DNA of 64,000 nucleotides from Streptococcus oralis subsp. dentisani (lineage in GTDB: Bacteria; Bacillota; Bacilli; Lactobacillales; Streptococcaceae), in assembly GCF_007475365.1 (NCBI RefSeq), contig NZ_CP034442.1, positions 372,001 to 436,000 on the forward strand, in the 5' to 3' direction. A program made the translations under genes and the position numbers. Position 1 is the stretch's first letter; each line of letters begins with the position of its first letter. The notes beneath the pieces were generated by a model. It ran no database searches and had not been told where the DNA came from. It saw only the letters and a program-made list of their open reading frames with translations. Shown piece by piece: positions 2,318 to 63,600 of the stretch.

Positions 2318-2326
2318 TGATATAAT
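2318..2326 (+). promoter_or_regulatory. Extended -10 promoter of ribF, predicted leaderless
   Basis: TGATATAAT is followed by exactly 6 nt and then the ribF ATG, so transcription would begin at or within a base or two of the A of the ATG. No Shine-Dalgarno sequence precedes the start. No good -35 box is visible; the TGN extension probably compensates. Confidence 0.7.
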
Positions 2327-2332
2327 AGTTTC

Positions 2333-3259
2333 ATGATTACAACAGTACCTATTAAGAACGAAAAAGATATTGCAGTACCGGGGAAAACAGTCCTTGTACT
2401 AGGTTATTTTGATGGCATCCACAAGGGGCATCAGAAACTTTTTGAAGTGGCCAGCAAGGCTTCGATGAAGGACTATCTACCAGTTGTTGTGATGACCTTT
2501 ACAGAGTCGCCAAAACTTGCCTTACAACCTTATCAACCTGAGCTCATGCTTCACATCGTTAATCATGAGGAGCGGGAGCACAAGATGAAGTGGCACGGGG
2601 TAGAAGCTCTTTTCCTACTGGACTTTAGTAGCAAGTTCGCTAATCTAACAGGGCAGGAATTCTTTGATACTTATGTTAGAGCTTTAAAACCAGCTATTAT
2701 CGTAGCAGGATTTGATTACACGTTTGGCTCAGATAAGAAAACTGCAGATGACTTGAAGGATTATTTTGATGGAGAGATTATCATTGTTCCTCCGGTCGAG
2801 GATGAAAAGGGCAAGATCAGTTCCACACGGATTCGCCAAGCTATTCTTGATGGAGATGTCAAGGAAGTCAACCATCTACTAGGCACACCTCTCCCAACCC
2901 GTGGGATGGTCGTTCACGGAAATGCTCGTGGACGGACTATCGGTTACCCAACAGCCAATCTAGTCCTAAGAGATCGAACTTATATGCCAGCAGACGGTGT
3001 TTACGTAGTTGATGTGGAAGTACAACGTCAGAGATATCGTGGTATGGCAAGCGTTGGGAAAAATGTTACTTTCGATGGAGAAGAGCCACGTTTTGAAGTC
3101 AATATTTTTGACTTTTCAGATGATATTTATGGTGAGACAGTCATGGTCTACTGGTTAGACCGTGTCCGCGATATGATCAAATTTGACACCGTCGAAGAGC
3201 TCGTAGATCAACTCAAGATAGACGAAGAGATTGCTCGGAACTGGAAGGGTGGAGAGTAG
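2333..3259 (+). CDS. ribF: Bifunctional riboflavin kinase / FMN adenylyltransferase RibF
   Basis: RibF phosphorylates riboflavin to FMN and adenylates FMN to FAD in the cytoplasm. The 308-residue protein has the family's usual length. The N-terminal nucleotidyltransferase domain carries GYFDGIHKGH at residues 24-33 (the GxFDGxHxGH class motif) and a SSTRIR motif near 163. The C-terminal flavokinase domain carries GNARGRTIGYPTANL near 196-210. The ATG follows a TGATATAAT box by 6 nt with no RBS, so the message is probably leaderless. The gene stands alone between the smc terminator and its own terminator at about 3267. No FMN riboswitch fits in the short upstream gap. Confidence 0.96.
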   Translation: MITTVPIKNEKDIAVPGKTVLVLGYFDGIHKGHQKLFEVASKASMKDYLPVVVMTFTESPKLALQPYQPELMLHIVNHEEREHKMKWHGVEALFLLDFSSKFANLTGQEFFDTYVRALKPAIIVAGFDYTFGSDKKTADDLKDYFDGEIIIVPPVEDEKGKISSTRIRQAILDGDVKEVNHLLGTPLPTRGMVVHGNARGRTIGYPTANLVLRDRTYMPADGVYVVDVEVQRQRYRGMASVGKNVTFDGEEPRFEVNIFDFSDDIYGETVMVYWLDRVRDMIKFDTVEELVDQLKIDEEIARNWKGGE

Positions 3260-3266
3260 AAGATTT

Positions 3267-3302
3267 AAAAAAGTGAACCGTATTTTGTGTTTGCTTTTTT
3301 AT
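3267..3302 (+). terminator. Terminator after ribF
   Basis: AAAAAAGTGAAC pairs with GTTTGCTTTTTT (two G-U pairs) around a 9-nt loop and ends in a T-run. Confidence 0.75.
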
Positions 3303-3335
3303 TTTTGAAAGAAATTTTTATAGAGAGAAACATAA

Positions 3336-60313: not shown

Positions 60314-60373
60314 AATAAAGAGACTCCTTTCAGTTTTGATACAATAGTTTCAAAATTTGAGAGGAGTTTTTAT

Positions 60374-61552
60374 ATGAATCGACATGCAATCCAGTTGATT
60401 AGTCGTGGGGCTATTAATAAAATAGGGAATATGCTCTATGACTATGGAAATAGTGTTTGGTTAGCATCAATGGGAACGATAGGACAGACTGTTCTTGGTA
60501 TTTACCAAATTTCTGAACTCGTCACATCGATTCTGGTCAATCCCTTTGGCGGAGTGATTTCAGACCGATTTTCGCGTCGCAAAATTTTGATGACGACAGA
60601 CTTGATTTGTGGCATTCTCTGTTTAGCTATTTCTTTCATCAGAAATGATAGCTTGATGATTGCTGCTCTGATCTTTGCCAATATTGTTCAGGCGGTTGCC
60701 TTTGCATTTTCTCGTACAGCCAATAAAGCCATTATAACTGAGGTTGTAGAGAAAGACGAGATTGTGACCTATAATGCTCGCTTAGAGCTCGTTTTGCAGG
60801 TTGTAGGCGTTAGCTCCCCTGTACTTTCTTTCATCGTTTTACAATTTGCCAGTCTCCATATGACGCTTATTTTAGATGCCATTAGTTTTTTCATCGCATT
60901 TACATTAGTAGCTTTTCTCCCCCAAAAAGAGACTCAGGAACAAGAGAAAAAGACTTTCAGCTGGAAAAATATTTTTGCTGATATGAAAGAAGGACTTGGC
61001 TATATCTGGCGCCAGCAAGAGATCTTTTTCCTTTTGTTAGTAGCTTCCAGTGTTAATTTCTTTTTTGCAGCTTTTGAATTTCTCCTCCCTTTTTCAAATC
61101 GACTATACGGGGTAGAAGGAGCTTATGCGAGTATTTTGACTATGGGCGCTATTGGTTCGATTATCGGAGCTCTTCTAGCTAGTAAAATAAAGGCAAGTGT
61201 TTATAATCTTTTGATTCTATTGGCTTTGACTGGAGTTGGAGTTTTTATGATGGGATTGCCACTGCCAACTTTTCTTTCCTTTTCTGGAAATTTAGTTTGT
61301 GAACTGTTTATGACGATTTTTAATATTCACTTTTTTACTCAGGTGCAAACCAAGGTTGAGGGGGAATACTTGGGAAGGGTACTAAGCACAATTTTTACCT
61401 TAGCCATCCTATTTATGCCGATTGCAAAAGGCTTTATGACGGTGCTACCAAGTGTTCATCTCTCTTCTTTCCTGATAATTGGGAGCGGGGTTATTGCCCT
61501 GTCTTGTTTATCCCTCGTTTATGTACGAAGTCATTTTAAAAAAGAGTTATAA
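60374..61552 (+). CDS. MFS transporter
   Basis: A 392-residue protein with 12 predicted membrane segments and the MFS loop 2-3 motif NPFGGVISDRFSRRKILM near 55-70. The putative substrate is not assigned; the layout resembles multidrug or macrolide-type exporters (MefA-like class by general form). It follows the Rgg-like regulator, with its own TACAAT box about 30 nt before the ATG (GATACAATAG) and RBS GAGAGGAG, so regulation by that gene is plausible but unproven. Confidence 0.87.
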   Translation: MNRHAIQLISRGAINKIGNMLYDYGNSVWLASMGTIGQTVLGIYQISELVTSILVNPFGGVISDRFSRRKILMTTDLICGILCLAISFIRNDSLMIAALIFANIVQAVAFAFSRTANKAIITEVVEKDEIVTYNARLELVLQVVGVSSPVLSFIVLQFASLHMTLILDAISFFIAFTLVAFLPQKETQEQEKKTFSWKNIFADMKEGLGYIWRQQEIFFLLLVASSVNFFFAAFEFLLPFSNRLYGVEGAYASILTMGAIGSIIGALLASKIKASVYNLLILLALTGVGVFMMGLPLPTFLSFSGNLVCELFMTIFNIHFFTQVQTKVEGEYLGRVLSTIFTLAILFMPIAKGFMTVLPSVHLSSFLIIGSGVIALSCLSLVYVRSHFKKEL

Positions 61553-61605
61553 TTTCTCTTTTTTAGAAAATATTTCTCCACAATCCATTTTTCAGTCCTT
61601 CTCTA

Positions 61606-61635
61606 TTGTGAGGAGGGCTTGCTTTGTGGTAAAAT
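61606..61635 (+). promoter_or_regulatory. Promoter of ligA, predicted leaderless
   Basis: TTGTGA, an 18-nt spacer and TGG-TAAAAT; 6 nt separate the -10 box from the ligA ATG and no RBS is present. Confidence 0.7.
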
Positions 61636-61641
61636 GGGATT

Positions 61642-63600
61642 ATGAATGAAAGAATGAATGAGTTAGTTGCCTTGCTCAACCGCTATGCGACCGAGTACTA
61701 TACGAGTGATAATCCCTCGGTGTCAGATAGTGAGTATGATCGCCTCTACCGAGAGTTGGTCGAGTTGGAAGCTGCCTATCCAGATCAAGTTTTAGCAGAC
61801 AGTCCGACCCATCGTGTTGGTGGTAAGGTTTTAGATGGTTTTGAAAAATACAGTCATCAGTATCCTCTTTATAGTTTGCAGGATGCTTTTTCACGTGAAG
61901 AGTTAGAAGTTTTTGATGCGCGTGTTCGTAAGGAGTTACCCCATCCCACCTATATCTGTGAGCTGAAAATCGATGGTTTGTCTATCTCTCTTACGTATGA
62001 AAAGGGGATTTTTGTCGTTGGGGCGACACGTGGAGATGGTTCTATTGGTGAGAATATCACAGAAAACCTCAAGCGTGTCAAGGACATTCCTTTGACCTTG
62101 CCAGAAGAACTTGATATTACCGTTCGTGGGGAGTGTTACATGCCACGCGCTTCTTTTGACCAGGTCAACCAAGCTCGCCAAGAAAATGGAGAGCCTGAAT
62201 TTGCCAATCCTCGTAACGCAGCTGCAGGAACCCTCCGTCAGTTGGATACAGCAGTAGTGGCCAAGCGTAATCTTGCGACTTTCCTCTATCAAGAAGCCAG
62301 CCCTTCTACTCGTGATAGCCAAGAAAAAGTCTTGGAGCATCTTGAACAACTTGGTTTTGTAGTTAATCCTAAACGAATCTTGGCTGAAAGCATGGATGAG
62401 ATATGGAATTTTATCCAAGAAGTAGGACAAGAACGGGAGAAACTACCTTACGATATTGATGGAGTGGTAATCAAGGTCAATGACTTAGCAGGTCAAGAAG
62501 AACTCGGCTTTACTGTTAAAGCACCCAAGTGGGCAATCGCCTATAAATTTCCTGCTGAAGAAAAAGAAGCTCAACTCCTTTCAGTTGACTGGACAGTAGG
62601 TCGTACGGGTGTTGTGACCCCGACTGCCAATCTCACACCTGTTCAGCTTGCTGGCACAACTGTAAGCCGTGCAACCCTTCATAACGTAGATTATATCGCT
62701 GAAAAGGATATCCGAAAAGACGATACGGTTATCGTTTATAAGGCTGGAGATATTATCCCTGCTGTTTTGCGTGTGGTAGAGTCCAAGCGTGTTTCTGAAG
62801 AAAAACTAGATATTCCGACTAATTGTCCAAGCTGTGATAGCCAGTTGCTTCACTTTGAAGATGAAGTAGCTCTTCGTTGTATCAATCCTCGCTGTCCAGC
62901 TCAAATCATGGAAGGTCTGATTCACTTTGCCTCTCGAGATGCCATGAATATTACAGGACTTGGTCCATCTATCGTTGAAAAACTTTTTGCTGCCAATTTG
63001 GTAAAGGATGTGGCAGATATTTACCGTTTGAAAGAAGACGAATTCCTCCTTTTAGAGGGCGTCAAGGAAAAGTCTGCTTCTAAACTGTATCAGGCCATTC
63101 AAGCATCTAAGGAAAACTCTGCTGAAAGGCTCTTGTTTGGTCTGGGAATTCGCCATGTCGGAAGTAAGGCTAGTCAGCTCTTGCTCCAACACTTCCACTC
63201 TATTGAAAATTTAGCTCAGGCAGATCCAGAGGAAGTGGCAAGTATCGAAAGCTTGGGTAGTGTGATTGCCCAAAGTCTTCAGACTTATTTTGCTACAGAA
63301 GGATCGAAGATTCTCTTAGACGAGTTGAAAGAAGCTGGAGTCAATCTGGATTACAAAGGACAGACAGTAGTGGCAGATGCGGCCTTGTCAGGTTTGACAG
63401 TAGTTCTGACAGGAAAATTGGAACGTCTCAAACGCTCAGAAGCAAAAAGTAAACTCGAAAGTCTTGGAGCCAAAGTCACAGGCAGTGTATCCAAGAAAAC
63501 AGATCTAGTCGTAGCAGGAGCCGATGCAGGAAGCAAGCTCCAAAAAGCACAAGAACTTGGTATCGAAGTTCGAGATGAAGCTTGGCTAGAAAGTTTGTAA
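61642..63600 (+). CDS. ligA: NAD-dependent DNA ligase LigA
   Basis: LigA seals Okazaki nicks and repair nicks using NAD+. The 652-residue protein has the Ia domain ([26 protein letters not shown]), the adenylation motif CELKIDGLS with K109, [17 protein letters not shown], a Cys4 zinc finger (CPSCDSQLL, then CINPRCPAQ), HhH repeats and a C-terminal BRCT domain. Full length. ATG 61642 is 6 nt after TGGTAAAAT with no RBS; a second in-frame ATG lies three codons later. Confidence 0.97.

Follow-up and report, generated by a model that had tools for sequence, protein, structure and literature searches.

Six genes of Streptococcus oralis subsp. dentisani with a -10 box six nucleotides before the start codon: predicted leaderless mRNAs and their conservation in the genus

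Six start sites in the window

We analysed a stretch of 64,000 nucleotides (nt) from Streptococcus oralis subsp. dentisani (contig NZ_CP034442.1 of assembly GCF_007475365.1), called the window throughout, which covers positions 372001-436000 of a single-contig genome of 1,926,555 bases. It contains six genes (ribF, tex, coaB, mutY, a gene for an ABC-F ATPase, and ligA) whose ATG start codons closely follow the -10 hexamer of a putative promoter. A preliminary description of this DNA had proposed that the hexamer lies exactly 6 nt from the ATG in all six, that five of them have a TGN extension ahead of the hexamer, and that none has a Shine-Dalgarno (SD) sequence; transcription would then begin on or next to the A of the ATG. 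That description located each site by the first base of the TGN or, for coaB, by the first base of the hexamer. The sites are as follows, in positions of the window.

2318-2335, plus strand: ribF; TGA, TATAAT (2321-2326), 6 nt, ATG (2333-2335)
10876-10893, plus strand: tex; TGG, TATAAT (10879-10884), 6 nt, ATG (10891-10893)
37605-37619, minus strand: coaB; TACAAT (37619-37614), 6 nt, ATG (37607-37605), without TGN
37637-37642, minus strand: -35-like TTTACT of coaB, 17 nt from the -10 hexamer TACAAT
51054-51071, plus strand: mutY; TGT, TATACT (51057-51062), 6 nt, ATG (51069-51071)
57512-57529, plus strand: ABC-F ATPase gene; TGC, TATACT (57515-57520), 6 nt, ATG (57527-57529)
61627-61644, plus strand: ligA; TGG, TAAAAT (61630-61635), 6 nt, ATG (61642-61644)

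The proposed anatomy is borne out in every particular. The spacing is 6 nt in all six genes, which means that the hexamer begins 12 nt before the start codon, and the start codon is AUG in each case. TGN stands ahead of the hexamer in five of the six; the exception is coaB, which has GTG at that position. The listed open reading frame (ORF) of coaB opens with a GTG in the same frame, at 37622, whose stretch down to 37608 takes in part of the -10 box; the supported start is the ATG at 37607. RibF, CoaB, MutY, LigA and the ABC-F protein pass their NCBIfam cut-offs, Tex was named from its Pfam domains, and the LigA of the window shares 96% identity with records titled S. pneumoniae and S. mitis. 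A scan of the window with Rfam at gathering thresholds returned no match.

None of the six starts is preceded by an SD-like match. Among all the in-frame starts listed for these genes, the only such match is a weak one at residue 32 of coaB. The other ORFs of the window are often SD-led, again as had been described: 28 of the 50 listed have an SD-like match before their first listed start, and the number rises to 37 when every start up to codon 40 is considered.

Excess over chance

The simplest alternative is that these sites are accidents, AT-rich strings resembling a -10 box that happen to fall before an ATG in a genome of 40% G+C. We counted the pattern TGNTATAATN6ATG in the window, allowing one mismatch, and found 8 matches against a mean of 1.82 for shuffled sequence; none of 100 shuffles reached 8. 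Five of the eight matches have an intact ATG, and all five are gene starts, belonging to five of the six genes; in the remaining three, the mismatch falls within the ATG itself. A looser pattern, TANNNT-N6-ATG, occurs in the window at the frequency expected by chance (36 found, 42.05 expected). Because the strong motif is enriched and the loose one is not, the signal resides in strong -10 boxes at true starts.

The density of sites within the window was given no weight, because the finding was picked owing to those five sites. We measured the distance from extended -10 boxes to ATG codons in a sample of 464 kb of the same genome, consisting of the window and 20 sampled stretches (400 kb outside the window). 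For the 1,324 ATGs of long ORFs (at least 80 codons, with an in-frame stop within 300 nt upstream), 11 boxes lie at distance 6, 3 at distance 7 and 1 at distance 5, with 3 in total over distances 0-4 and either none or one at each distance from 8 to 19. Between 20 and 30 nt the count is up to 6, as expected of ordinary leaders. The ATGs of short ORFs (n = 10,317) show 1 to 9 boxes per distance and no peak, with 6 at distance 6. Long ORFs of the 464-kb sample also offer 633 GTG and 1,419 TTG codons, and at none of these does an extended -10 stand at distance 6. The 11 ATG sites at that distance divide into five in the window and six in the other 400 kb.

The same preference is found across the genus. 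We counted TGNTATAAT followed by 5, 6 or 7 nt and an ATG, using the reversed pattern as a control; ATGs other than gene starts are counted too. In 78 Streptococcus genomes, the 6-nt pattern was found 1,802 times (a mean of 23.1 per genome), compared with 446 for 5 nt (mean 5.7) and 1,115 for 7 nt (mean 14.3), while the reversed controls totalled 67 for 6 nt (mean 0.9), 123 for 5 nt and 103 for 7 nt. The 6-nt count exceeded the 5-nt count in all 78 genomes and the 7-nt count in 73 of them. In a draw of 198 genomes from the order, comprising 27 of the same genus and 171 others (none from another genus of the same family), the 6-nt pattern averaged 21.7 in the former and 3.0 in the latter; the corresponding control averages were 0.41 and 1.35.

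The behaviour of the loose pattern is what accidental sites would give, but the strong motif is clearly in excess, the peak at a single spacing appears at the ATGs of long ORFs and not at those of short ones, and the spacing is kept in many relatives although the spacer bases change (see below). We consider chance an extremely improbable explanation.

Conservation of the spacing in the genus

We searched 31 genomes of the genus, the window's own included, and read 30 loci for each gene. For five of the genes, the limit of 30 loci left out one genome each (for tex, mutY and ABC-F, one whose match was partial or broken), and one genome had no coaB match. A hexamer counted as a box if it agreed with TATAAT at 5 or more of its 6 positions and had T, A and T at positions 1, 2 and 6. 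The start of each orthologue was taken as the in-frame ATG closest to the extrapolated first residue, a choice that is less certain for ribF and tex. A -35-like match had to agree with TTGACA at 4 or more of 6 positions, with a gap of 16-18 nt in the case of coaB. The results are given below; the figures for TGN and for the -35-like match refer to the loci with spacing 6.

ligA: spacing 6 in 30 of 30 loci; TGN in 30 of 30; -35-like match in 9 of 30
ABC-F: spacing 6 in 30 of 30; TGN in 25 of 30; -35-like match in 9 of 30
coaB: spacing 6 in 29 of 30, 7 in 1; TGN in 1 of 29; -35-like match in 29 of 29
mutY: spacing 6 in 24 of 30, 7 in 2, no box in 4; TGN in 24 of 24; -35-like match in 11 of 24
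ribF: spacing 6 in 16 of 30, 7 in 7, one each at 8, 9 and 18, no box in 4; TGN in 12 of 16; -35-like match in 8 of 16
tex: spacing 6 in 11 of 30, 7 in 10, 8 in 1, 9 in 8; TGN in 10 of 11; -35-like match in 1 of 11

Overall, the spacing is 6 in 140 of the 180 orthologue loci. Conservation in relatives, which the preliminary description put forward as a check, holds for ligA, ABC-F and coaB and mostly for mutY, while ribF and tex keep the spacing only loosely. Each gene has between 7 and 24 different 6-nt spacer sequences, and the hexamer varies as well, except in tex. Because the bases of spacer and hexamer change, the spacing is maintained by more than slow change. A match to GGAG, GAGG or AGGA is present in only 3 of the 180 loci.

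A bacterial transcript usually starts at a purine that follows a pyrimidine. At the 97 distinct sites with spacing 6, the base before the ATG is T in 72, C in 22, A in 3 and G in none, so that 94 of 97 have a pyrimidine, versus 85 of the 174 SD-led ATG starts in the genome sample, a comparison whose significance is inflated by kinship among the species. All 16 distinct 7-nt sites also have a pyrimidine before the ATG. In other words, both spacings fit transcription starting at the A of the ATG.

Three genes show departures of particular kinds. In eight tex loci (L074, L075, L077, L079, L081, L082, L087 and L089) the -10 box stands 9 nt away, and the ATG is preceded by GTT or ATT with a pyrimidine before that triplet; in these 8 of 30 loci the mRNA is predicted to begin RUUAUG, that is, to carry a 3-nt leader. 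Three of the mutY loci (L130, L132 and L133) lack the -10 box at the usual place, and an SD-like match was not found in its place. Upstream of ribF (loci L031-L060), the preceding gene ends in a KPRKV-like tail in 18 of the 30 loci, as judged by eye; this tail is perhaps that of TruB. Spacing 6 is found in 5 of the 18 loci with such a tail versus 11 of the 12 in which the upstream gene ends differently. Loss of the old neighbour may accompany gain of the fixed promoter, which we mention as a lead only.

The ligA start outside the genus

We also scanned the ligA starts of the best 80 of 584 loci in a collection, among which there is no Lactococcus. Of the 12 loci titled Streptococcus, 11 have spacing 6. 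The twelfth, L248, comes from a record named Streptococcus sp. 263_SSPC; its ligA shares only 56% identity with the query, shows an SD-like match and lacks a -10 nearby. Its label or contig is probably not Streptococcus. Besides those 11, there were 69 loci; 11 of these were dropped for lack of a start codon near the aligned place, leaving 58 including L248. No box at distance 6 was found in any of the 58 (0 of 57 without L248), and 31 of the 58 have an SD-like match. In this sample, the predicted leaderless arrangement of ligA is confined to Streptococcus among the best 80 loci. This points to a switch of ligA from SD-led to leaderless initiation in Streptococcus or in a slightly wider lineage, the wider range being allowed because the sample holds no Lactococcus locus.

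A rejected seventh case

We examined relQ (GTP diphosphokinase; window positions 47503-47601, plus strand) as a further candidate and rejected it. Five nt separate an extended -10 from an ATG in frame at 47521, a start that could add 26 residues. In all 31 genomes, however, homology sets in at residue 1-3 as counted from the start at 47599, and GGGAG precedes this start in the window's genome. In 27 of the 30 loci read, the frame is interrupted by a stop no more than 60 nt ahead of the equivalent of 47599; only two loci, that of the window's genome and that of the nearest relative, have a frame open up to the ATG at 47521. The distance from box to start varies widely, from about 50 to 100 nt. 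We take relQ to be probably an ordinary leadered gene, for which the longest-ORF start at 47521 is probably wrong and 47599 right.

Interpretation

The 6-nt peak, the absence of such sites at GTG and TTG codons of the 464-kb sample, the lack of an SD sequence, the pyrimidine before the ATG and the retention of the spacing in relatives all support the proposal that transcription starts on or next to the A of the ATG. Leaderless mRNA is very likely the right reading for the six genes. Stated in full, it holds that they are transcribed from promoters placing the start at the A of the ATG, and that the resulting leaderless mRNAs, having no SD sequence, are translated by direct recognition of the 5'-AUG. 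We put the probability of this reading at roughly 0.93.

From the sequence we infer the sigma factor, the 5' ends of the six mRNAs and the 70S route of the following scheme. Sigma-A promoters would serve all six genes, through an extended -10 in five of them and through a -35 plus a -10 element in coaB. As the -10 begins 12 nt ahead of the start codon, RNA polymerase would initiate at the A of the ATG. The resulting mRNAs would have neither a leader nor an SD sequence, and the AUG at the 5' end would be recognised directly by the ribosome, probably in its 70S form.

Several observations weigh against this interpretation. The spacing differs from 6 in 14 of the 30 ribF loci and in 19 of the 30 tex loci, and no box is found near the start in 4 of 30 orthologues of ribF and 4 of 30 of mutY. 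One of these mutY loci (L141) looks leadered, with a G-rich, SD-like stretch. The loose TANNNT pattern shows no excess in the window, and the sites of related genomes are not independent of one another. An extra promoter further upstream may also yield a leadered mRNA.

A different objection accepts the boxes as real promoters and takes them to produce leadered mRNAs, the true, SD-led starts lying downstream of the ATGs considered here. There is a probable precedent in relQ, where an extended -10 stands near 47521 but homology and GGGAG place the start at 47599. However, the relatives' matches begin at residue 1-4 of ligA, ABC-F, coaB and mutY in the loci read, and the alignments begin at residue 1-8 of tex and 1-20 of ribF. 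The in-frame starts listed for the six genes offer no SD-like match beyond the weak one in coaB, and the distance between box and start is variable in relQ but fixed in ligA, ABC-F and coaB. We regard displaced starts as very improbable.

The six genes might further be a co-regulated leaderless set, selectively translated in some state such as stress or a changed ratio of initiation factors. Conservation of leaderless mRNAs among three streptococci has been read, in one account, as possible common regulation (PMC6431027). The functions are mixed, however, and the further sites belong to RNA modification, envelope and other genes; moreover, addition of a ribosome-binding site to the leaderless pbp2A of S. 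pneumoniae is reported to have left its output unchanged (PMC6212727). A co-regulated set seems to us quite unlikely. The related claim that the set is enriched in DNA repair and translation or cofactor genes found no support in the small numbers at hand: the six further genes with spacing 6 in the 400 kb outside the window are those for TruA, MurT, PlsY, a SpoU-type methylase, a GAF-domain protein and an N6_Mtase-domain protein.

We also considered a more speculative extension of the leaderless reading, namely that the fixed placement of the -10 has been selected in the genus for shared translational control, with leaderless initiation switching on and off gene by gene in streptococci. It draws on three observations. 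First, ligA, ABC-F and coaB keep the spacing in at least 29 of 30 loci despite changes in the hexamer, the spacer and, for ABC-F, the TGN. Second, the ligA arrangement occurs only in Streptococcus among the best 80 of 584 loci. Third, 8 of the 30 tex loci represent a second state of that gene, in which the box stands 9 nt from the ATG. We think this extension unlikely.

If the leaderless reading is right, several streptococcal housekeeping genes, including those for DNA ligase and an ABC-F ATPase, should need no ribosome-binding site for their translation; for some of the six genes this arrangement is preserved genus-wide. Programs that look for an SD sequence when calling starts may put such starts in the wrong place.

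Comparison with known systems

A leaderless class in streptococci is already known: its existence has been demonstrated by 5'-end mapping in three other species, and leaderless mRNAs are reported to make up 8-9% of mRNAs or operons there, many of them common to several species (PMC6212727, PMC6431027, PMC4448216). In S. pyogenes, 67 leaderless mRNAs (8.6%) are described, of which 54 are common with S. agalactiae and 39 are also leaderless in S. pneumoniae (PMC6431027). For S. agalactiae, the figure is 78 (8%), all with AUG and 90% starting from its A, in a map that counted leaders under 5 nt as leaderless (PMC4448216). The passages on leaderless mRNAs in these two accounts do not name the six genes. 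In S. pneumoniae D39, 449 transcription start sites are listed with only a -10 or extended -10 site, and the leaderless pbp2A is described as efficiently translated (PMC6212727).

Predictions from sequence also preceded ours. Zheng et al. (2011) took TANNNT around 12 bp before the start codon as a sign of leaderless genes. Within the Lactobacillales, they found such TA-led genes in two clades, Lactococcus-Streptococcus and Oenococcus-Leuconostoc, whereas Enterococcus and Lactobacillus had none (PMC3160421). Their distance of around 12 bp is the spacing of 6 seen in our six genes. Given these published maps and predictions in streptococci, the six-gene finding is a correct rediscovery of a known class. 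Our additions are the peak at 6 nt over 78 genomes, a record for each gene of where the spacing is kept and where it drifts, the preference in the base that precedes the ATG, and the observation that the ligA arrangement is limited to Streptococcus among the best 80 of 584 loci. Unlike the genome-wide classification of Zheng et al. (PMC3160421), our analysis compares spacings of 5, 6 and 7 nt over 78 genomes and follows the drift of individual genes.

The closest likeness elsewhere is in Deinococcus-Thermus, where experiments are reported to show leaderless expression driven by a -10 motif that lies a few bp ahead of the ORF and is subject to spacing requirements (PMC12340547). That system belongs to another phylum, and the motif is described there as a common expression pattern (PMC12340547).

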